IMG/VR virus record: IMGVR_UViG_3300028410_000065
Coordinates: 1-23,694 of that record
DNA: 23,694 bases
Source of the DNA: a virus
Reading direction: 5' to 3' (one strand)
The number at the start of each line of letters is the position of its first letter. Within the stretch, counting starts at the first letter, position 1. Position numbers and translations under genes: made by a program. The notes beneath the pieces are model-generated. The model was not told where the DNA came from. It saw nothing but the letters and a program-made list of their open reading frames with translations, and did not search any database. Of this stretch, positions 2,381 to 23,151 are shown in pieces.

Positions 2381-4549
2381 TTATTTATTTTCTAATCTAT
2401 TAAGTAATTGGCTAGCAATCGTATTTACATTTTTTTCTTTAAACTCTTCTTCTTTATATTCTTCAATCACTAGCATTAACTGGAATAAAGCCATCACTCT
2501 ATCAAAGTTACCAGATCTGCTGTATGCCATAAGTTCTTCTATTAGTCCAAGTGAAGGTATAAGGTCTAAATTAAATATAGTTTCCCCTTCCTCACTTATA
2601 CCTCTTTCTATCATTAACCAATTGTAACACCATTTTTCACAAGCACCTTTCATCTTGTCATTCATAGGAGCACCATACACACGAGATACTTTAGAATTCT
2701 TTATAACCTTACCCATTGCTGAATCAGGTTGATGTTCTAATAAATGTACTTTACCTTTTCTATGAAAATAAGCCATAACATCTTTACCTATTTCATTCTC
2801 ATGCATTATTTTAGCATTACCATAATACATAGATAACATCATAGCAACCTCATTTATATCATCTGTAGATTCATATCTACCTGTATATTCTGCTACTATT
2901 TCATCATAACCGTGATCAAATTTTTGATAACCTTTATACACTATTAATGATGCTAAAGATTTATATGCAGATTTATTATCTACATCAAACTTAACAGGGT
3001 CATACCCTATCTTATACATTTCAGAAGGATAATCAGTTTCTGGCGGACTTTGATAAATCATTACAGCACTTTCAGCATTGTTTGATTTTTTGTGAGGATA
3101 AGAATATATAGGTTCTAACGATCTGTCAGGTATAAATTTAATAGGTCTCTGTGGATCTCTAGTTCTTTCTAACTTTCCAGGAACTCCTATATTTTTATAT
3201 CTGTTGTTCATTTTTAACCTGCTCTTAACTCTTTTAAGTAAAGCAACTGGAAATACGTTTCCTTCAGGCTTTAGGAAAGCTTCTGTTGGAGTTTTACACT
3301 TTTGAGTAATGGATACATCATAATCTTCTTTAGATCCCTTAGAAGCTACTTTACGTTCTTTATCCAAAGACAATTCAGCTACCCATCTAAAAGAGTTTCC
3401 ATTTTTATCCATTGAAACATGTAATTTACCATTTTCATCTACATAAGATGCACCTGGTCTAAACCACATTTCATCTACAAATAAACCTGACTTACTTTGT
3501 GTTTCATTTTCTTCGTATATGTTATCATACTCTGCTAAACCATAATCTGAAGGTGAGTTATGCATCTCTGCAAAATCTTGTGTAGATCCCTCCATGTCAC
3601 CACCTGTACCAAATATAATAGGTATACCAATCCACGTTTCACCATCTCTTAAAGTAGGTTCAGCAAATCTGTAAGCTTTTTTTAGCATGTTAATAAGACC
3701 ACCCTCCTCAAATATAAATCTAGTACAAGATAGACCTGCGGATTTATCTGGATTATCTTTAAGAGTAAGAATTTTTATTTCAGATAAGAATCCCTTTTCA
3801 ACATCTTGTCCATTAATTTTTTCCATCCAACCAGACCTAATAAATGTTTGAGTATCTTTTAGTTTAGAGTGTCTAAATTCTGTGTATTCATTTAAGAAGT
3901 TACACATATTCTTAGCCATGTTAAATGTGTTAATAGCTTTGTCTTCAATTTCAGCTGCAATTACAACTCTAGATTTAGAGAAGAATGTGTATATCCATAC
4001 AGCACCTGCAGCATTTTTAAATGAGAATCCTTTACGTCTAGCTTTTGCTAGTATAATTCCTTTTTTATCTTTACTAGATTTTCCAAATTTTACAGGGTTT
4101 TCACAAAGTTCTAATTCTAAGAAATAGTAATAGTCCATAGAAACAAAATTAGGGAATCCTAATTCCTTAGTTTCCCTTCCATCTGGTTTTGTAACTGTTT
4201 TTTCTATTCTACAAAAGTTTAAATAAAAGTAATGTTCTCCTGTAATATAAACTCCTCCAATTGTAAAACCATTTAAACATCTATCTTTTTGCTCTTGCCA
4301 ATATTTATAATATTGAGAGCTTCCAGGTATAGCCGTAGTGTAACAAGTGTTACCTTTACTTTCATTTAAATCAAATTCATTAGCAGCAGGTGTAAACACA
4401 CTACTATCTTTAAACAAAAGATAATCTCTATTTAAATTAGAAACTGGATTTCTAAAAGATAAATCAGACACTAAATCTTTTACCTCTTCAGGTATAGTTG
4501 ATTTAATATCTGTTATAACCTCTGCTATTTTTGGATCGTATTTAGTCAT
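2381..4549 (-). CDS. terL: Terminase large subunit (DNA-packaging ATPase-nuclease)
   Basis: This 722-residue protein is the packaging motor. The N-terminal ATPase has a deviant Walker A region at 164-176 (GIILAKARRKGFS), a Walker B at 278-284 (FIFEEGG, with the acidic pair for Mg and catalysis) and a coupling-type motif at 311-317 (IIFGTGG). The C-terminal RNase H-like nuclease shows its acidic triad: D517 in GYDPV, E584 or E586 in HENEIG, and D683 in FDRVMAL. The length and the ARRKGFS form of Walker A match TerL of crAss-like and related Bacteroidota phages. The start overlaps the upstream gene by 8 bases, and the portal gene begins 1 base after the stop. All catalytic motifs appear intact. 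Confidence 0.93.
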   Translation of the reverse strand: MTKYDPKIAEVITDIKSTIPEEVKDLVSDLSFRNPVSNLNRDYLLFKDSSVFTPAANEFDLNESKGNTCYTTAIPGSSQYYKYWQEQKDRCLNGFTIGGVYITGEHYFYLNFCRIEKTVTKPDGRETKELGFPNFVSMDYYYFLELELCENPVKFGKSSKDKKGIILAKARRKGFSFKNAAGAVWIYTFFSKSRVVIAAEIEDKAINTFNMAKNMCNFLNEYTEFRHSKLKDTQTFIRSGWMEKINGQDVEKGFLSEIKILTLKDNPDKSAGLSCTRFIFEEGGLINMLKKAYRFAEPTLRDGETWIGIPIIFGTGGDMEGSTQDFAEMHNSPSDYGLAEYDNIYEENETQSKSGLFVDEMWFRPGASYVDENGKLHVSMDKNGNSFRWVAELSLDKERKVASKGSKEDYDVSITQKCKTPTEAFLKPEGNVFPVALLKRVKSRLKMNNRYKNIGVPGKLERTRDPQRPIKFIPDRSLEPIYSYPHKKSNNAESAVMIYQSPPETDYPSEMYKIGYDPVKFDVDNKSAYKSLASLIVYKGYQKFDHGYDEIVAEYTGRYESTDDINEVAMMLSMYYGNAKIMHENEIGKDVMAYFHRKGKVHLLEHQPDSAMGKVIKNSKVSRVYGAPMNDKMKGACEKWCYNWLMIERGISEEGETIFNLDLIPSLGLIEELMAYSRSGNFDRVMALFQLMLVIEEYKEEEFKEKNVNTIASQLLNRLENK

Positions 4550-10030: not shown

Positions 10031-10385
10031 ATGTGTATGTTATATAAGTTAATGTAACTGCTATTATTAAAGAAGTTATTCTAACAAATAGATTAGCAGC
10101 TACGGGTAGTTTTTTAAATTCTAAATCAGTTTTATTACTACCTAAATAAAACCATTCTTTCATTTTTATCTTTGAGAAAGCTAAATCAAATATAGCTACT
10201 CTTAAAAAAAAGTATATAGGAACTCCTAAATAACTATTTATTAATAGTCCCATTATACTAGCAATCATAACAGTACCAGTTAACCTTAAATTTGATATTA
10301 GATCATGTTTGTCACCATATATTACTTCTAAAGTAACTTCTAATAGAACCAATAACAATAAGTTTATAAATAAGAGTGTATACAT
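10017..10385 (-). CDS. Membrane protein, probably four helices, unknown function
   Basis: The 122-residue protein has hydrophobic segments at about 3-22, 38-52, 55-70 and 100-118, separated by a charged loop around 72-92. It lies directly downstream (15 bases or fewer) of the structured noncoding stretch at 10390-10680, which could be its leader. Some phage holins have this size and topology, but the separate location from the lysis cassette argues against calling it one. Confidence 0.58.
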   Translation of the reverse strand: MYTLLFINLLLLVLLEVTLEVIYGDKHDLISNLRLTGTVMIASIMGLLINSYLGVPIYFFLRVAIFDLAFSKIKMKEWFYLGSNKTDLEFKKLPVAANLFVRITSLIIAVTLTYITYTYEFI

Positions 10386-10389
10386 AATT

Positions 10390-10680
10390 TCTTTGTCTTT
10401 TATACTTACTGTGAAATAAGCATAGCTTTTCCCCTTGTAAGTTTTACCTTAGTTGCTATTTCAAGTTTAAACTTCGTTAGTAGCAGTGATTGAGCCTCTG
10501 GATAACAATATGGGGTGAACTCCCCAGACCTTTATGGTGTCTAATCTATCCAACACTACTAACTCGTTTTAACCCTTGTGTATCTATTGGAGAAAACTCT
10601 GATTCTATTTGAATCTACAATCCAACTTCTAACCTCTTATTGGTTACCTAGAGGTGGTATTCATAACTGAATGATACACT
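10390..10680 (-). ncRNA. Structured leader or independent noncoding RNA
   Basis: This 342-base gap between two minus-strand genes holds no open frame but many complementary segments. Pairings seen include GTTAGTAG (10476-10483) with CTACTAAC (10556-10563), which encloses a stem of TCT/AGA and GGGG/CCCC (10497-10528); ACCTCT (10632-10637) with AGAGGT (10650-10655); and GATTC (10601-10605) with GAATC (10611-10615). A -7-like box lies at 10682-10689, just upstream on the minus strand. I checked for RNase P RNA, tmRNA and tRNA signatures and found none. It could be a trans-acting RNA or a long regulated leader of the membrane-protein genes. Confidence 0.5.
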
Positions 10681-13538: not shown

Positions 13539-13908
13539 GGGGGTGTTCTGGCTTTTGACAGAATGGCTATGATTAGACGAACAAGTATGCAAAAATGAAA
13601 CTATCAATGCATTAAATAATATGTTTCAAGTCATAAACGACAAACAAATATCAAATACAACTGTTGATGCTCAAGGAGTATTACAGATGTTCCCTACTGT
13701 TAAGCTAGAAATAGCAGCATAGTATGGCTGATTTAAGCTGGTAACTAAATTACCAAAAACAGAGATAAAACTGTAAAGCTAAAGGTGGAGCTTGTACTAA
13801 GTAGTACAGCCTAATATTCTAGTTTAAAGAATACAAACAAAAACAAAACTTGTAACAATTTATTTATGATTAACATTTTGGACCTGGGTTCGACTCCCAG
13901 CACCTCCA
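13539..13908 (+). ncRNA. ssrA: Transfer-messenger RNA (tmRNA)
   Basis: The tRNA-like domain is complete. Acceptor strands GGGGGTG (13539-13545) and CACCTCC (13901-13907) pair over 7 bp, including a G3-U70 wobble, the alanyl-tRNA synthetase identity element. The 5' D-loop region reads TTCTGGCTTTTGACAGAATGG, as in Bacteroidota tmRNAs. The T-arm is CTGGG-TTCGACT-CCCAG (13884-13900) with discriminator A13908. CCA is not encoded. Internal hairpins such as GGTAA/TTACC and GTACT/AGTAC stand for the pseudoknot-rich 3' part. tmRNA rescues stalled ribosomes and tags their products for proteolysis with SmpB. No smpB is seen in the window, so host SmpB would be used. Confidence 0.95.
13633..13722 (+). 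other. tmRNA tag reading frame (29 codons, unusually long)
   Basis: The bases AGTC (13629-13632) followed by ATA AAC GAC match the E. coli resume region (AGTC GCA AAC GAC). That places the resume codon at 13633 and gives a 29-residue tag that begins INDKQI and ends KLEIAA before TAG at 13720-13722. E. coli and most Bacteroidota tags are about 9-11 residues and end ALAA. The C-terminal AA needed by ClpXP-type recognition is kept. The resume position is by analogy only. Confidence 0.65.
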
Positions 13909-13942
13909 CAATAATAATTTAACATTTTAACAATTTAACATT

Positions 13943-14236
13943 ATGAATAACGAAGAAAAAACAAAAAATAATATGAAAACATTTGCAGTATTAATTACAT
14001 CATCAGATGGTAAAACATTAATCAGTAATCACGATGAATCTGGAGATAGTATTGTCAGTATTATACAATTGTATGAAAGTTTAGGTCAATTACCTAAAGG
14101 TCAAATCATAAAAGCAATAGTTGAAAAAACTGAACATTATACTCCAATAGAAGCTAAAGATTTTGATAATGGTACAATAAAGGAAATGAATTCTGATTTT
14201 AATGTTGACTTATATGAACAAATTTTGTGTATGTAA
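13943..14236 (+). CDS. Small protein of unknown function
   Basis: The 97-residue soluble protein has a beta-type N-terminal part (KTFAVLITSSDGKTLIS), a helix around SIVSIIQLYESLGQL and an acidic end. It begins 34 bases after the tmRNA, behind three TTTAACA/TTTAACAAT repeats, so it may be transcribed with the tmRNA. No family recognised. Confidence 0.52.
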   Translation: MNNEEKTKNNMKTFAVLITSSDGKTLISNHDESGDSIVSIIQLYESLGQLPKGQIIKAIVEKTEHYTPIEAKDFDNGTIKEMNSDFNVDLYEQILCM

Positions 14237-14390
14237 ATCAAAAATCATAGTCAGACAAAAGACGTTAAAAGAAGGGAATAGCTGAATATCCTTAAACAAA
14301 TAGAAGCTAGATCTACATAAAACCATCCGTAAGATAGATGGCACACAACCAAAAAAGGGAAAAGTGTGCTGATGTAGAAGGAATAGAAAA
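14237..14390 (+). ncRNA. Noncoding stretch with a three-way-junction RNA (core 14312-14378)
   Basis: TCTACAT (14312-14318) pairs with ATGTAGA (14372-14378), enclosing two hairpins: CCATC/GATGG (14323-14341) and CACAC/GTGTG (14342-14368). Upstream, AAGG/CCTT (around 14273-14293) or TAGCT/AGCTA offer alternative pairings. There is no open frame. Together with 14403-14596 this makes a 400-base gap that is filled by RNA structure. Confidence 0.5.
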
Positions 14391-14402
14391 CAGTGAAATA
14401 AT

Positions 14403-14486
14403 AAAATGTCTCTTTCATGGGCGAGGTTAATACGGATATTCTTTTAAAGATCCCTATTAATAGTGGTTCAAGTCCACTGCATTTTT
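14403..14486 (+). ncRNA. tRNA-like element with an extended anticodon arm (Lys-UUU-like loop)
   Basis: Acceptor-like strands AAAATGT (14403-14409) and GCATTTT (14479-14485) pair over 7 bp. The T-arm AGTGG-TTCAAGT-CCACT (14462-14478) is perfect, and a D-like stem CTC/GAG encloses TGGG. In place of a 5-bp anticodon stem there is a long hairpin, TTAATA/TATTAA then GGAT/ATCC (14427-14460). Its tip contains CTTTTAA, the canonical loop of tRNA-Lys(UUU). Whether it is charged or translates is unclear. It is too irregular for a standard tRNA call. Confidence 0.5.
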
Positions 14487-14497
14487 TATTTTAACCA

Positions 14498-14596
14498 AAA
14501 ACACACTGTATTACTGCAGTAGTACCACGTTTTATCTATAATGATAAATTCAATAAAGTATAATCTACAAGGTAGAGGGTTCTTTCAGTGTGTTTT
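14498..14596 (+). ncRNA. 99-nt structured RNA closed by an 11-bp helix
   Basis: AAAACACACTG (14498-14508) pairs with CAGTGTGTTTT (14586-14596). Inside are TTTATC/GATAAA with a TATAAT loop (about 14533-14550) and CTAC-AAG-GTAG (about 14567-14577). The 3' strand ends in T-rich DNA. It lies 42 bases before the next ATG and 11 bases after the tRNA-like element. Confidence 0.5.
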
Positions 14597-14638
14597 ATTT
14601 TATTTTTATTAATCAAAAAACAAGAAAAAAGAAATATT

Positions 14639-14830
14639 ATGAATTATTTAGATTTAGATCCTTATTTAATAATAGGATTATCAGCCGTTTTAATTATAGT
14701 AGTAATGTTTACTGCATATGATTTATTTGAAAATGAGTTAGTGATGACCAATAATTGGTTTACGTGTAGTATGATATTTTGGGTATCTATAGCTTTGCTT
14801 ATTTTATCTTTTATTTATTTAACTTATTAA
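14639..14830 (+). CDS. Small membrane protein, two helices
   Basis: A GTG at 14588 would extend the frame but lies inside the helix of the preceding RNA, so I start at the ATG at 14639 (63 residues). Hydrophobic segments at about 10-25 and 42-61 flank an acidic/polar loop (DLFENELVMTNNW). First of three consecutive small membrane-protein genes. Function unknown. Confidence 0.55.
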   Translation: MNYLDLDPYLIIGLSAVLIIVVMFTAYDLFENELVMTNNWFTCSMIFWVSIALLILSFIYLTY

Positions 14831-14841
14831 CAGAAATCAAT

Positions 14842-15012
14842 ATGAAAAAATTATTATTATTTACATTATTAGGCTTAACATTAATTTTAATATTATTAGG
14901 TTATGCTACAATAATATGGTGGGGAACATTACAAAGTTATATAGCTTTATTTGAAGTTTTTGTATTCTCTTTTTTACTTTATAAAACTTTTATTGAATTA
15001 AAAAGAATATGA
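14842..15012 (+). CDS. Small membrane protein, two helices
   Basis: Start at the ATG at 14842 (56 residues), 11 bases after the previous stop; the longer frame would overlap that gene. Segments LLLFTLLGLTLILILLGY and YIALFEVFVFSFLLY are membrane-spanning, and the ends are basic. The stop overlaps the next start (ATGA). Confidence 0.55.
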   Translation: MKKLLLFTLLGLTLILILLGYATIIWWGTLQSYIALFEVFVFSFLLYKTFIELKRI

Positions 15013-15299
15013 ATTTTCTTATTATATATTTTATAGGGTATCTTATTATGTTTTTATATGCATCTATAAGTGAAATTTTAATTGAAAAAGATAAACTTAC
15101 AGTAGAAATTTTACTTGGATTTTTTTTGATAAGTATAAGTTCTTGGGGGGGTTTATTTTTTATTTTAGCAATTAAATCAATTGATAGAATAATTGTATTA
15201 AAAAGTAAAATGAGTAAACCTCTTAAAAAATGGTTAAACACAACAATTTATACTCCTAACACAGGTGGAGCTAATCATTTTACAACAAACAAGAAATAG
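15009..15299 (+). CDS. Small membrane protein with a soluble basic tail
   Basis: The 96-residue protein has helices at about 2-20 and 33-55, separated by an acidic loop, and a basic C-terminal tail of about 35 residues (KSKMSKPLKKWLN...). It is translationally coupled to the previous gene by ATGA. Function unknown, perhaps membrane modification or superinfection exclusion together with its two neighbours. Confidence 0.55.
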   Translation: MNFLIIYFIGYLIMFLYASISEILIEKDKLTVEILLGFFLISISSWGGLFFILAIKSIDRIIVLKSKMSKPLKKWLNTTIYTPNTGGANHFTTNKK

Positions 15300-15348
15300 A
15301 TAATTGAAACACATCCTTTGCGGAAATTTGGAACGTTGTTATCTTTAT

Positions 15349-15451
15349 ATTAATAGTAGTGAAGCTGTAAAAATGTGGACAAGCTAAGGGTTTAGCTCAC
15401 ATTAGGTTCTACGGAATTAACAGAAACCTTGAAAGACCCGAAACTATTAAT
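15349..15451 (+). ncRNA. 103-nt three-way-junction RNA
   Basis: ATTAATAGT (15349-15357) pairs with ACTATTAAT (15443-15451). Inside, AATGTG/CACATT encloses AGCTAA-GGGT-TTAGCT (15372-15403), a 12-bp interrupted hairpin with a 4-base loop, and AGGTT pairs with AACCT (15404-15429). No open frame. Confidence 0.5.
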
Positions 15452-15456
15452 AACAC

Positions 15457-15589
15457 AAACTATTCACAAAGTAAGAAAGCTCGTACTGACTCTTAACTGA
15501 GAAGTACAAGTATATATTAAAAGAACTACGATAAATTAATATCACGTAGAATCTTAAAAGGCAGGTGAAGATCCTGAAGTGAATAGTTT
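15457..15589 (+). ncRNA. 133-nt RNA closed by an 11-bp helix with three hairpins
   Basis: AAACTATTCAC (15457-15467) pairs with GTGAATAGTTT (15579-15589), followed by a T run. Internal hairpins are GTACT-ga-CTC/GAG-a-AGTAC, CTACG/CGTAG and CAGG/CCTG. The closed helix with three arms looks like a cloverleaf, but no T-loop or anticodon loop is recognisable. Confidence 0.52.
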
Positions 15590-15608
15590 TTTAAAAAATT
15601 AAATACAA

Positions 15609-15854
15609 ATGAAAAAATTACTATTAATACTAACATTTCTTACATTTTTAGGATGTAACAAAGAAAATATTACACCAACACCAGAGTGTAATTGTGGAAC
15701 AATATCTGATTATGGAACTAAAAATGGTTTGTATTGGATAGAATTAGAAAATGATTGTTCAGGTAATAAAGAACATTGGTTTTTTAGAGAAGAAGTTTTT
15801 ATAACTGCACAAATAGGTTATAATTTGTGTATGTATGATGAACCAAATTGGTAA
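15609..15854 (+). CDS. Secreted lipoprotein
   Basis: The 81-residue protein has a signal peptide of type II: two Lys, a hydrophobic core LLLILTFLTF and a lipobox LGC with Cys16 as the acylation site. The mature part is about 66 residues and has more cysteines (CNCGT, DCSG, NLC) that may form disulfides. Signal peptidase II would anchor it in an envelope membrane. Phage-encoded small lipoproteins are often superinfection-exclusion or receptor-blocking proteins. That is inference for this one. It lies between two structured RNA blocks. Confidence 0.7.
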   Translation: MKKLLLILTFLTFLGCNKENITPTPECNCGTISDYGTKNGLYWIELENDCSGNKEHWFFREEVFITAQIGYNLCMYDEPNW

Positions 15855-15879
15855 AGAAATACGTTAAACCTATGACGTT

Positions 15880-15927
15880 GTGATTAACCTCGGTCCTGAA
15901 AATGGATAAAACCGTGGTCAATGTCAC
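15880..15927 (+). ncRNA. Long interrupted hairpin
   Basis: GTGATT-a-ACC-t-CGGT (15880-15894) pairs with ACCG-t-GGT-c-AAT-gt-CAC (15911-15927) around a 16-base loop. It is the first element of a noncoding stretch that runs to 16330. Confidence 0.45.
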
Positions 15928-15949
15928 TAAATAAAGATAGAATATAAAT

Positions 15950-16019
15950 TGTAATAACACAAGCACCTGGAGGTAAGCAGGTTTAATAGAAACTACAGTC
16001 TAAGCTTAGTGTTATTACA
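15950..16019 (+). ncRNA. 70-nt RNA closed by an 11-bp helix
   Basis: TGTAATAACAC (15950-15960) pairs with GTGTTATTACA (16009-16019). ACCTG/CAGGT (15965-15982) and TAGA/TCTA form internal arms. The size is that of a tRNA, but no T-arm motif is present. Confidence 0.5.
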
Positions 16020-16031
16020 TACAAATTTATC

Positions 16032-16172
16032 AAGTGTACCAACTGTATGGTAATATGTTGGATAGAGATATAGTAACTAATCTGTTAAATGACGTTACTT
16101 AGATGAAACAATAGTATGTTTGAATAGATTTAACACTATAATAAAACATTGAGAAGTAGTTAGAATACACTT
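16032..16172 (+). ncRNA. 141-nt multi-hairpin RNA domain
   Basis: AAGTGTA (16032-16038) pairs with TACACTT (16166-16172). Internal helices: CCAAC/GTTGG (16039-16061), AGTAAC/GTTACT (about 16072-16101) and ATAGT/ACTAT or TGTTT/AAACA near 16113-16148. The 3' strand abuts the next domain without a spacer. Confidence 0.48.
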
Positions 16173-16304
16173 AGGAGTTTACAACAAGAGATAGACAGAA
16201 TGGAGGATGAATTAAGTAATCCGAGTCATGTACTAATTATCTTGTGACCATTTATAGAAATATAGATGGTGCTAATACATCACTGAGAATACAGTAAAAC
16301 TCCT
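16173..16304 (+). ncRNA. 132-nt multi-hairpin RNA domain before a terminator
   Basis: AGGAGTTT (16173-16180) pairs with AAACTCCT (16297-16304). Inside are GGAT/ATCC (about 16213-16230) and a hairpin ACCAT-t-TATA capped by a GAAA tetraloop (about 16247-16269). It directly touches the terminator that follows, so it is the last domain of this RNA block. Confidence 0.5.
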
Positions 16305-16330
16305 AGCAGGAGAGTATAATCCTGCTTTTA
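16305..16330 (+). terminator. Intrinsic terminator closing the RNA block
   Basis: AGCAGGA (16305-16311) pairs with TCCTGCT (16320-16326) and is followed by TTT then A-rich DNA. It ends the chain of structured RNA domains and separates it from the next gene. Confidence 0.72.
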
Positions 16331-16345
16331 AAAAAATTAAAAATT

Positions 16346-16507
16346 ATGACAATATTAGAAATTACATTAACAGGAATAATATGGATAGCGTATGGTTGTC
16401 GTGTAAGTGACCAACATGATTGGAATGAACACTCTGCATCTCATATAATTTTTGCACCTATTGTGCTACTTTATAGAGTAGTAGTAGGAATTTTCAATAA
16501 ACCTTAA
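16346..16507 (+). CDS. Small protein with hydrophobic ends
   Basis: The 53-residue protein starts 16 bases after the terminator. Hydrophobic stretches (LEITLTGIIWIAYG and HIIFAPIVLLYRVVVGIF) flank a polar loop with His and Asp (SDQHDWNEHSASH). It could be a two-helix membrane peptide or a metal-binding membrane protein. Not recognised. Confidence 0.48.
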   Translation: MTILEITLTGIIWIAYGCRVSDQHDWNEHSASHIIFAPIVLLYRVVVGIFNKP

Positions 16508-18318: not shown

Positions 18319-18600
18319 ATGAACAAAGTAACACGTAAAAAGAGATATTCATCTCCAGATGAAGTGATTAGATCACTATCAACTAAAAATGATGTAAGAA
18401 TTGTATCTGCAAAAGATGGCAATCAAATTGTAAGAGTACTATCTAATAGTGCTAGAGGTAGAAAAAATGATCTAGGTAATAGTAGTCTTGGAAAAATAGA
18501 CTATTTAACAAATCATTGTGGTAACAAATTTACTAAACAAATAGTAGATAAGTTTGAACCAAAAAAGCCTTTTAAAAAGAAATACCCTACAACAAGGTAA
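18319..18600 (+). CDS. Small basic soluble protein
   Basis: The 93-residue protein is rich in Lys and Arg, with NKVTRKKRYSSPDEVIRSL at the start and KPFKKKYPTTR at the end. It may bind nucleic acid. No family recognised. A hairpin follows its stop codon. Confidence 0.52.
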   Translation: MNKVTRKKRYSSPDEVIRSLSTKNDVRIVSAKDGNQIVRVLSNSARGRKNDLGNSSLGKIDYLTNHCGNKFTKQIVDKFEPKKPFKKKYPTTR

Positions 18601-18602
18601 TT

Positions 18603-18642
18603 AAGTAAATACTACTGTGTAGAAATATGCAGTAGTATACTT
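18603..18642 (+). terminator. Hairpin, possible weak terminator
   Basis: AAGT and ATACTACTG (18603-18617) pair with CAGTAGTAT and ACTT (18630-18642), 13 bp with a 2-base bulge. The following TTAAAATA gives only a short T run. Confidence 0.45.
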
Positions 18643-18653
18643 TTAAAATATCA

Positions 18654-18767
18654 ATGAGATTAAAATTAAAATTGTTTTATTTATTCAGATTGAATAAAAT
18701 TACAAAGAATTTAATAAAAAATGGAGTAGTATCCAAAAGAGACCTAATAAAAATTAACAAGAAATGA
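18654..18767 (+). CDS. 37-residue basic leader peptide coupled to the amidotransferase
   Basis: ATG at 18654 gives a basic, partly hydrophobic peptide (MRLKLKLFYLFRLNKITKNL...) whose TGA overlaps the ATG of the next gene (ATGA). The overlap suggests translational coupling, or a regulatory leader peptide. Confidence 0.42.
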   Translation: MRLKLKLFYLFRLNKITKNLIKNGVVSKRDLIKINKK

Positions 18768-21997: not shown

Positions 21998-22534
21998 ATG
22001 AATATAATTAATTTTAAAGTAATAGCTATACTAACACTAATAACAATTAGTGGATTTTGTATAACACCTACAAAGGTTGTGGAAAAACCTGTAGTTATAG
22101 AAATCCTATGTGAAGAAGATACTTACATAGAAGAAAAAGAAAACATATTTAATTTAATTGACAAATACTGTGCAAAATACAATGTATGTAATGCCGTAGT
22201 ATATCAAATAGGATTAAACGAATCTGGATGGCCTAACCCTAATAACTTAGAATATACTCAAAAAGTATGGGATTGTGGTGCATTTAGTTATGGTGATATG
22301 CAAATATGGGAACCAACTCGTAAAAGTATGTTTAAAAAACTTAATTTAAGTGATACAACTAGAGAAAACTGTTTGCACGCTAGCATATATTATTTACATT
22401 TAAAATATGTAAAATATGGCAGTTGGTATAAAGCTAGATTTGCTTACGGTAGAGGAAGTTGGAGACCAGAAAATACTTGGAAACCAATAGAAAAAAGATT
22501 TATGAACAAACACAACTGGAAACAATATGACTAA
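21998..22534 (+). CDS. Secreted lytic transglycosylase / lysozyme-like protein
   Basis: The 178-residue protein has an N-terminal hydrophobic signal segment (about 5-20), then a lysozyme-like domain. QIGLNESGW at 70-78 carries the probable catalytic Glu E75. AFSYGDMQIWEPT at 95-107 corresponds to the SxGxMQI motif of SLT-type transglycosylases. FAYGRGSW near 147-154 corresponds to the A-Y-N/G-x-G-x motif. Such enzymes cleave glycan strands of peptidoglycan. Its separation from the lysis cassette and its signal peptide suggest action in the periplasm, perhaps on virion entry or wall remodelling, rather than holin-dependent lysis. Confidence 0.75.
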   Translation: MNIINFKVIAILTLITISGFCITPTKVVEKPVVIEILCEEDTYIEEKENIFNLIDKYCAKYNVCNAVVYQIGLNESGWPNPNNLEYTQKVWDCGAFSYGDMQIWEPTRKSMFKKLNLSDTTRENCLHASIYYLHLKYVKYGSWYKARFAYGRGSWRPENTWKPIEKRFMNKHNWKQYD

Positions 22535-22539
22535 TAAAA

Positions 22540-23151
22540 ATGAAGATAACTAAAAATAAAGTTTTTTCTAATAGAAGTTTTAACAATAAAATATATTACA
22601 AGACTCATAAAAATGCACCAAAATATGGTGCAGAGTCTTGTTTTTCATTTTTAAATTTAAACTCAAACTATTTAAAAATTGAATTACACAAACATTCTGA
22701 TATTACAAGAAAAGAATTCTTAGAATATTTAAGAAAAATGAAATTAATTTTTAAAGATTTAGAATACAAAAAAGAAAAAAAGAAATATTATTTAATTATG
22801 GGTAGTTCTTTATTACCTAAAGGTACTTTAAATTCTAAAAAAAAAACTCTTGCAATTCTAACAATAATTAGATTTTTATGGGAAAGCCATGGAGATTGTT
22901 ATTCTGTTTCTTTTATTAAAGAATTTGTAAATGATAATCGTAGAATAGAAACTATGATTAAATTTTCAGAAGCATTCAATAATAATAAAGATAAAATCTA
23001 TTATTCTTCAGGACATGGTATAGATAGCCTCAATAATAAATCAAAAGGAATAGTAATTCAAACTTCTAAAGAATTTTTTAGTAAAGATAAAGATAGTGTG
23101 ACAGGTTATTTTGCAAGAAAAGAATCTAAATTTAAACCAAAAGCAATATGA
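22540..23151 (+). CDS. Protein of unknown function coupled to the second amidotransferase
   Basis: The 203-residue protein is basic and Lys-rich, with FLEYLRKMKLIFKDLEYKKEKKKYY as a likely helical part and no signal or membrane segment. It starts 5 bases after the transglycosylase stop and its TGA overlaps the ATG of the next gene (ATGA). The coupling makes it a candidate partner of the amidotransferase, but no ligase motif is visible. Confidence 0.58.
   Translation: MKITKNKVFSNRSFNNKIYYKTHKNAPKYGAESCFSFLNLNSNYLKIELHKHSDITRKEFLEYLRKMKLIFKDLEYKKEKKKYYLIMGSSLLPKGTLNSKKKTLAILTIIRFLWESHGDCYSVSFIKEFVNDNRRIETMIKFSEAFNNNKDKIYYSSGHGIDSLNNKSKGIVIQTSKEFFSKDKDSVTGYFARKESKFKPKAI

Follow-up and report, generated by a model that had tools for sequence, protein, structure and literature searches.

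In this work we have analyzed a virus contig of 23,694 bases (IMG/VR record IMGVR_UViG_3300028410_000065, here called the window), a relative of the crAss-like Cellulophaga phage phi14:2. It contains an RNA island in which a transfer-messenger RNA (tmRNA) is followed by several structured RNAs between small genes. One of these, which we term family B, is a compact RNA domain of some 90–130 nucleotides (nt) with a pseudoknot. It has a defined fold, occurs widely in virus contigs, is placed like a transfer RNA (tRNA), exists in a circularly permuted form and, in phi14:2, lies inside what ARAGORN identifies as the tmRNA. We consider the chances about even that family B is cut out of tRNA transcripts and persists as a stable RNA, in analogy to RNAs C and D of phage T4, and that it may act on translation.

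In its canonical order, helix P1 closes the element and is followed by strand X (AGUGAAG), helix P2, the P4 hairpin and strand Y (AAACCUUGAAAGACCCGAA). P2 consists of CUG/CAG, with six more pairs in the long forms, and the P4 loop GAAAAARGGUUUnnAGUA pairs via seven bases with strand Y, thus forming a pseudoknot. The window copy features a 9-bp P1, a CTG/CAG P2 and all seven pseudoknot pairs. Covariation was analyzed in an alignment, A1, of 31 out of 55 representatives, all of the long form; short-loop variants, the window and long-loop rows expected to align poorly were left out, and the pair counts describe this best-aligned subgroup. Pairing was found in 94.1% of 899 cells, compared with 73.4% upon shuffling, and changes on both sides occurred in 23 of 29 pairs, compared with 16.8 (none of 500 shuffles reached 23). 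The covariation value was 0.606 versus 0.204 in shuffled controls, and when the partner was slid by one to three columns, pairing fell to 35.9–50.4%. With all 55 representatives, 333 of 385 pseudoknot cells paired against a shuffled mean of 286, a value that 0 of 2000 shuffles reached even though several misregistered rows count against the helix here. P1 provided 457 contiguous pairs, where shuffles averaged 231 and never exceeded 269. P2 is CUG/CAG in 50 of the representatives, CAG/CUG in three, and CUU/AAG and CUA/UAG in one each, and the pseudoknot AAGGUUU/AAACCUU is substituted by AAGGAUU/AAUCCUU, AGGCAUU/AAUGCCC, AUGGUUU/AAACCAU or AGGGUUC/GAACCCU.

When the family B and C gaps were compared with isolate phages by blastn up to E=10, no convincing match appeared, but one of 26 nt to phi14:2 led to the strands AGTGAAGCTG and AACCTTGAAAGACCCGAA, which are found in both phages in reversed order. 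Scanning the virus collection for CCTTGAAAGACCCGAA yielded 83 stretches; among the rows read, the partner strand was located upstream in 57, the window included, and downstream in nine. A second scan with the pseudoknot letters free (GTGAAGC-N65..95-GAAAGACCCGAA) gave 114 stretches, and only loci returned by it entered the set; a third, for the swapped strand order, gave 12. The pairing filter was passed by 123 of 137 canonical rows and failed by 14. L241, L246 and the copy L247 passed it and were dropped as coding sequence by eye; L296 failed and nevertheless matched our covariance model R1 at 84.3 bits, and L163, which also failed, may be a real member. The final set holds 120 rows in 120 loci, with 96 distinct sequences when the window is counted.

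R1 was built without the window, and its E-values are rough. It retrieved window positions 15349–15451 with 58.7 bits (E 4.5e-11 over 416 kb); up to E=1, this search of 23 sources otherwise matched only a near-identical contig and, at 48.8 bits, phi14:2, where X was left unmatched in keeping with the permuted form. Applied to 66 loci from the second scan, from which rows that looked false had been left out, R1 found 66 matches in 65 loci and missed only L247, the coding false-positive copy. It had no match at E<=0.1 in 77 GroEL-linked loci (1.12 Mb). Each of 11 virus records tried gave a single match; L264 is the only two-copy locus seen, with elements at 1682–1804 and 10264–10393, about 8.5 kb apart. 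Among 395 genomes of the phylum of genome G016, one weak match appeared (33.2 bits, E 6.5e-4 per genome, with about 0.26 expected by chance). It lies on a cellular contig of G105 (L317, 1501–1602), where a family-like loop, GAAAAAGGGTTTGTAGTA, is closed by CACG/CGTG, and could be a distant family B relative. On the eight carriers of family C, R1 gave two weak matches, L314 1–78 (23 bits) and L311 8618–8675 (17 bits). Fourteen genome contig stretches with the exact 18-mer had no full partner strand nearby, and the partial ones in L215 and L219 were judged to be chance.

Rfam 15 gave no family B match among the members scanned, and their carriers gave only tRNA, tmRNA and one GOLLD; the names obtained with single members up to E=5 (DLEU2_4, CRISPR-DR30, snR41, sodium riboswitch) are at chance level. 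No description of family B or C was found in the open-licence literature searched, an absence that is weak evidence. Against that literature, what is new is the fold, together with its permutation and its location within a tmRNA; the kind, structured phage RNAs near tRNA genes, is already known.

The genomic position of family B is marked by tRNA genes. Excluding the window, a tRNA gene lies within 300 nt of 70 out of 95 distinct members, upstream in 51 (median distance from P1 4 nt), downstream in 65 (median 7 nt) and on both sides in 46. At random positions in the same loci, a set that still had one false row (L247), a mean of 21.5 and at most 32 of 96 were near a tRNA. All 421 tRNA genes within 1500 nt of members share the strand of the element, in a count that still included the false rows L241 and L246. 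Family B therefore occupies the position that a tRNA gene would have in an array. The U-rich run that often follows P1, together with a complex, aptamer-like core, would also suit a cis-acting element of the tRNA operon, either an attenuator or a switch that senses a metabolite. We regard this as quite improbable, since tRNAs flank the element on both sides within 300 nt in those 46 members, one element is located inside a tmRNA, and no constant downstream gene was noticed.

The permuted form retains the fold while its strands are exchanged: the pseudoknot strand, the 3' strand of P2 and Y precede the P1 hairpin, X and the 5' strand of P2. From 19 rows inspected, 11 were taken as permuted and nine were tested; the pseudoknot has seven of seven pairs in eight of them and six of seven in one, and the P1 hairpin has 4–8 contiguous pairs in all nine. 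The nearly identical L303 and L307 keep pseudoknot and P2 by eye, with about 16 extra nt in strand Y. In phi14:2, an entire swapped element follows the tag stop codon and precedes the 3' tRNA-like portion of the tmRNA (4031–4500, ARAGORN). L198 resembles this tmRNA (75.9% over 116 and 74.7% over 87 positions) and seemingly carries the element inside a tmRNA-like stretch, at which ARAGORN finds no tmRNA. In this record (IMGVR_UViG_3300035698_014712), we also noted by eye that a tmRNA-like T-loop at about 720–990 is seemingly split by a group I intron, with core strands ending GATATAGTCC. In L302, a tmRNA-like stretch precedes the element by about 1.2 kb. At L251, a larger RNA resembling phi14:2 2905–3540 seemingly has the P1 helix GTAGTTA/TAACTAC in place of one of its hairpins, as deduced from 20-nt identities and a shared GTGACC..GTGCTAATA arm. 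Family B is hence portable: it occurs on its own, with either P1 or P2 as the closing helix, or as a graft within a tmRNA and a larger RNA. According to one report, only simple circular permutations were previously known in RNAs (PMC10085705).

Such portability could also point to a selfish or mobile, intron-like RNA that settles in tRNA-type loci. The loci of family B include tRNA arrays, a tmRNA and, at L251, a larger RNA beside a reading frame that we named HNH-like by reading, and the L198 tmRNA-like stretch seemingly has its group I intron; mobile introns in general favour tRNA-type loci. Yet all 11 records tried had one copy (L264 has two), the element stands between tRNA genes without interrupting them, and its 90–130 nt encode nothing obvious, so that we give this explanation a low probability.

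If family B is a stable RNA of the tRNA operon, it would be co-transcribed with the tRNAs and freed when its neighbours mature, through RNase P cleavage at the 5' end of the following tRNA and 3' trimming of the preceding one. It would then persist as a stable RNA, and the invariant loop strands AGUGAAG, GAAAAA..AGUA and GAAAGACCCGAA might bind a partner in the translation machinery during infection. In 23S ribosomal RNA, GUGAAG and GAAAGACCC presumably follow each other in this order as well, close to the peptidyl transferase centre, which may be chance. The place inside the tmRNA of a culturable phage suggests that the target of family B is translation or ribosome rescue. A close analogy is provided by T4 RNAs C and D (rnaC and rnaD, species 1 and 2), which, like family B, are non-tRNA RNAs inside a phage tRNA cluster. 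They measure 139 and 119 nt; D lies 1 nt from tRNA-Arg and C lies 6 nt from D. We know of no function for either. They were rejected as family B members, as R1 with filters off finds neither (the highest score within the 4 kb, 15.1 bits, lies elsewhere), and RNA C has a T-arm-like segment by eye, whereas family B has none. Phage tRNA clusters are known to contain such unexplained stable RNAs. With its widespread, well-defined fold, its covarying pseudoknot and its place in the tmRNA of a culturable phage, family B makes it testable what advantage an RNA other than a tRNA confers when a phage carries it in its tRNA operon.

Several points weigh against a stable RNA cut from tRNA transcripts. 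Free existence of family B, its processing and any partner are what we infer. A tRNA neighbourhood is common and not required: 25 of the 95 distinct members lack a tRNA within 300 nt in the sequence available, 20 loci, some of them short, contain no tRNA gene whatsoever in that sequence, and the window copy stands outside any array, with the tmRNA 1.4–1.5 kb upstream as its nearest tRNA-type gene. The phi14:2 tmRNA is an ARAGORN call, and the Rfam tmRNA model stays below its gathering score on this locus (L004). When two members were compared with isolate phages by blastn, only phi14:2 was found. Finally, the invariance of X and Y is due partly to the search patterns, which demanded both; P1, P4 and the outer P2 pairs were free in the scans, as was the pseudoknot in the second one.

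In a broader sense, we see it as a balanced question whether family B is a new functional RNA class, a portable pseudoknotted module in tRNA arrays, tmRNA and family C that might be either a ribozyme or a ribosome- or tRNA-binding domain, its natural circular permutation included. The ribozyme is the main rival to the stable RNA: family B would cleave itself, help to cut tRNA arrays and split the phi14:2 tmRNA in two. Its compact pseudoknotted core, many invariant nucleotides, natural circular permutation and distance of 4–7 nt from tRNAs that need separation agree with such an activity; a two-piece tmRNA can function, and circular permutation is known from hammerhead and twister ribozymes. 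These likewise reach a compact core via different terminal helices with the chain order swapped, but the scanned family B members have no Rfam covariance match, and up to E=5 no ribozyme family of Rfam was found for the L141 member or for window positions 13900–16400. Circular permutation is equally compatible with a binding module, the closed P1, often with a U-rich run after it, equally suits a free RNA, no cleavage site is apparent, and tRNA arrays are processed by host enzymes anyway. We therefore consider self-cleavage unlikely, though if true it would establish a new ribozyme class.

Coming back to family B as a stable RNA, it also differs from the other known RNAs of such loci. Although it is found inside the phi14:2 tmRNA, and families B and C are located near tmRNA genes in the window and elsewhere, family B itself has no tag reading frame or tRNA-like ends as in tmRNA (RF00023). 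GOLLD (RF02032) and ROOL are described as structured phage or prophage RNAs often near tRNA islands, with GOLLD RNAs often exceeding 800 nt (PMC12286853). Both kinds occur near tRNA genes, but family B is far shorter. The original prediction, made from the window sequence alone, had compared the RNAs of the island with GOLLD and ROOL; this likeness did not hold, as Rfam finds neither in the window, in 11 of 12 scanned family B loci or in the scanned family C loci. GOLLD appears only at L151, in one tRNA cluster together with family B.

The island contains a further RNA of greater size, family C. In the window, its core motif is accompanied by the core helices GATAGA/TTTATC, AAGTGTA/TACACTT, CCAAC/GTTGG, GAGATA/TATCTT and ACCATTTAT/ATAGATGGT. 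L115 matches the window around 16028 with 95% over 44 nt, and the pattern TATCAAGTGTACC-N5..25-GTAATATG retrieved ten virus contigs, with a gap of exactly nine letters in all ten. Two of these are the near-identical records of the window, so that with the window nine lineages are represented. They have in common AAGTGTA/TACACTT, CCAAC/GTTGG, GAGATA/TATCTC or a variant, and the CCAUUUAUAG/CUAUAGAUGG arm, while hairpin lengths differ widely; GATAGA/TCTATC is present in eight of the nine, those with the 5' part available. L310, at 143 nt, is the minimal form. This agrees with the predicted large ornate RNA, as family C is large and has a fixed core with variable peripheral hairpins. Compensatory changes lead from CCAAC/GTTGG to CCACC/GGTGG in L312 and from ACCAT/ATGGT to ACTAT/ATAGT in L309, the same arm having CCC/GGG in phi14:2 and CGT/ACG in L251, and one A-U pair is G-C in L315. 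Misfits are the last pair of the AAGTGTA helix in L312 and L315 and the first pair of the CCAAC helix in L311. Because most core pairs are invariant, the covariation support is modest. A further predicted helix, AGGAGTTT/AAACTCCT, is not a family feature: AGGAGTTT is kept in six of eight relatives, but the AACTCC partner is found within 200 nt downstream of the core in none of them. Rfam gave nothing but tRNA and one tmRNA on the scanned family C loci. In L313, a tmRNA follows about 240 bases after family C, and a GroEL gene is on the locus, as in the window.

Element A, upstream of both families, is conserved in phi14:2 (KC821624.1, 99802–99945; 158 bases, 72.5% identity, E 2e-9 by blastn), where it lies near the record end beneath a minus-strand 'gene', gp131. 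Both sequences share by eye a GTC-AGACAAAA-GAC hairpin and the CTACAT/ATGTAG helix that the original prediction had named. Both also have a possible H-type pseudoknot of AAGG..CCTT with TAGCT..AGCTA. A minus-strand gene is the rival to an RNA here, and gp131 and the window minus-strand open reading frame 14251–14418 do match at E 2e-4. We read element A as an RNA because these minus frames share only 12 residues, 10 of them identical, and indels break the frame. The comparison comprises two sequences, and what it shows is conservation. Two pattern scans of the virus collection revealed no third lineage; they returned the two near-identical records of the window and phi14:2. Six further contigs from one of the scans were rejected by eye, as the rest of the element is missing.

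The original prediction had described three gene-free stretches (14237–14638, 15300–15608 and 15855–16345) filled with helix-closed RNAs. The complementary segments it named are present at the positions given or at most 1–2 bases away. Inside the stretches, the only plus-strand open reading frames of at least 40 amino acids are two with GTG start that begin at 14588 and 14590, to which extent the stretches are not gene-free; the minus strand has frames of 40 amino acids or more, e.g., 14251–14418. Folding energies do not back the claim of an RNA density far above that of ordinary gaps. In 120-nt windows centred in the three gaps, within a scan region of 11.8–23.7 kb, mean z was −0.95 (10 windows), −0.22 (8) and −1.21 (13), compared with −0.64 in 250 other windows and −1.00 for the known tmRNA (10 windows). 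In this minimum-free-energy check, proposed with the prediction, the gaps thus rank no better than other windows, and minimum free energy singles out neither the gaps nor the tmRNA, a real structured RNA of this genome. The lowest z values of the scan lie elsewhere, at 22521–22720 (−6.1) and 18521–18720 (−4.4).

That the gaps hold structured RNAs we conclude because the comparison of homologues, and not folding energy, shows it: 15349–15451 and about 15936–16277 belong to RNA families with compensatory changes, and 14247–14404 is conserved in phi14:2. Single-sequence folding energies alone would have discarded a real RNA locus. Hence, the proposed group of several structured RNAs near a tRNA-type gene is real, beside the tmRNA, except for two closed stretches that lack a convincing homologue; among the loci compared, 14498–14596 and 15457–15589 gave only short, weak matches (22–45 nt, E 0.002–0.008). 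These two, the AGGAGTTT helix without comparative support and the unremarkable folding energies would be in line with chance helices in AT-rich DNA. As an account of the gaps, however, chance is hardly credible, being refuted for family B and very unlikely for family C, and element A is conserved. Whereas the prediction recognized no conserved motif, AGTGAAGC and GAAAGACCCGAA are common to 120 loci in a fixed structural setting. The expected lack of an Rfam match for the gap RNAs was confirmed, with none at gathering score and only chance-level names up to E=5.

Table 1. Positions of RNA features and helices in the window
Feature	Position	Strand	Remarks
tmRNA of the phage	13539–13911	+	ARAGORN; Rfam RF00023 55.5 bits; tag peptide VDAQGVLQMFPTVKLEIAA
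Element A	14247–14404	+	blastn to phi14:2; structure by eye from two sequences
Helix TCTACAT/ATGTAGA	14312 / 14372		
Closed multi-hairpin stretch, 11-bp helix	14498–14596	+	no convincing homologue
Helix ACACACTG/CAGTGTGT	14501 / 14586		
Helix TATTAATAGT/ACTATTAATA	15348 / 15443		
Family B element, canonical order	15349–15451	+	R1 58.7 bits, E 4.5e-11
Family B, P1 5' strand	15349–15357	+	pairs with 15443–15451
Family B, conserved strand X, AGTGAAG	15358–15364	+	
Family B, P2 5' strand CTG	15365–15367	+	pairs with CAG 15421–15423
Family B, pseudoknot strand AGGGTTT	15387–15393	+	AAACCTT 15424–15430, 7 of 7 pairs, one G-U
Family B, conserved strand Y, AAACCTTGAAAGACCCGAA	15424–15442	+	
Closed multi-hairpin stretch	15457–15589	+	no convincing homologue
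Helix ACTATTCAC/GTGAATAGT	15459 / 15579		
Family C element	15936–16277	+	pattern match, core helices around variable hairpins
Helix TGTAATAACAC/GTGTTATTACA	15950 / 16009		
Helix AAGTGTA/TACACTT	16032 / 16166		
Helix AGGAGTTT/AAACTCCT	16173 / 16297		
Terminator-like hairpin GCAGGA/TCCTGC, then TTTT	16307–16330	+	sequence and fold
tRNA genes	19584 and 21893		

The remaining features of the window place it among crAss-like phages. One stretch is similar to phi14:2 (Crassvirales, Steigviridae, Asinivirinae), terminase relatives at about 35% identity come from Flavobacterium phages and uncultured gut phages of the crAss kind, and a Cpn60/GroEL protein is encoded (Pfam PF00118). Two longer virus contigs of 88,950 and 74,712 bases are identical to the window across the 6.1 kb compared. 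The tmRNA of the window has tRNA-like ends and a tag frame in addition to its Rfam score. At 14406–14484, we observed a tRNA-like stretch with a possible 7-bp acceptor stem, a T-arm GTGGTTCAAGTCCAC (14463–14477) and a long arm replacing the anticodon arm, which is called by neither ARAGORN nor Rfam; phi14:2 L004 at about 1760–1860 resembles it. A gene-free stretch of phi14:2 (L004 1280–1620) contains short conserved blocks of 26 to 47 nt (87–96%) that recur in several loci, namely L115 (15321–15513), L204, L163, L143 and L113, and judged from these blocks it may be another RNA family of such islands. Several short minus-strand 'genes' annotated in phi14:2 (gp013/gp014, gp131 and gp007–gp009) are probably not real; they overlie the tmRNA, element A and a further RNA-like stretch devoid of genes.

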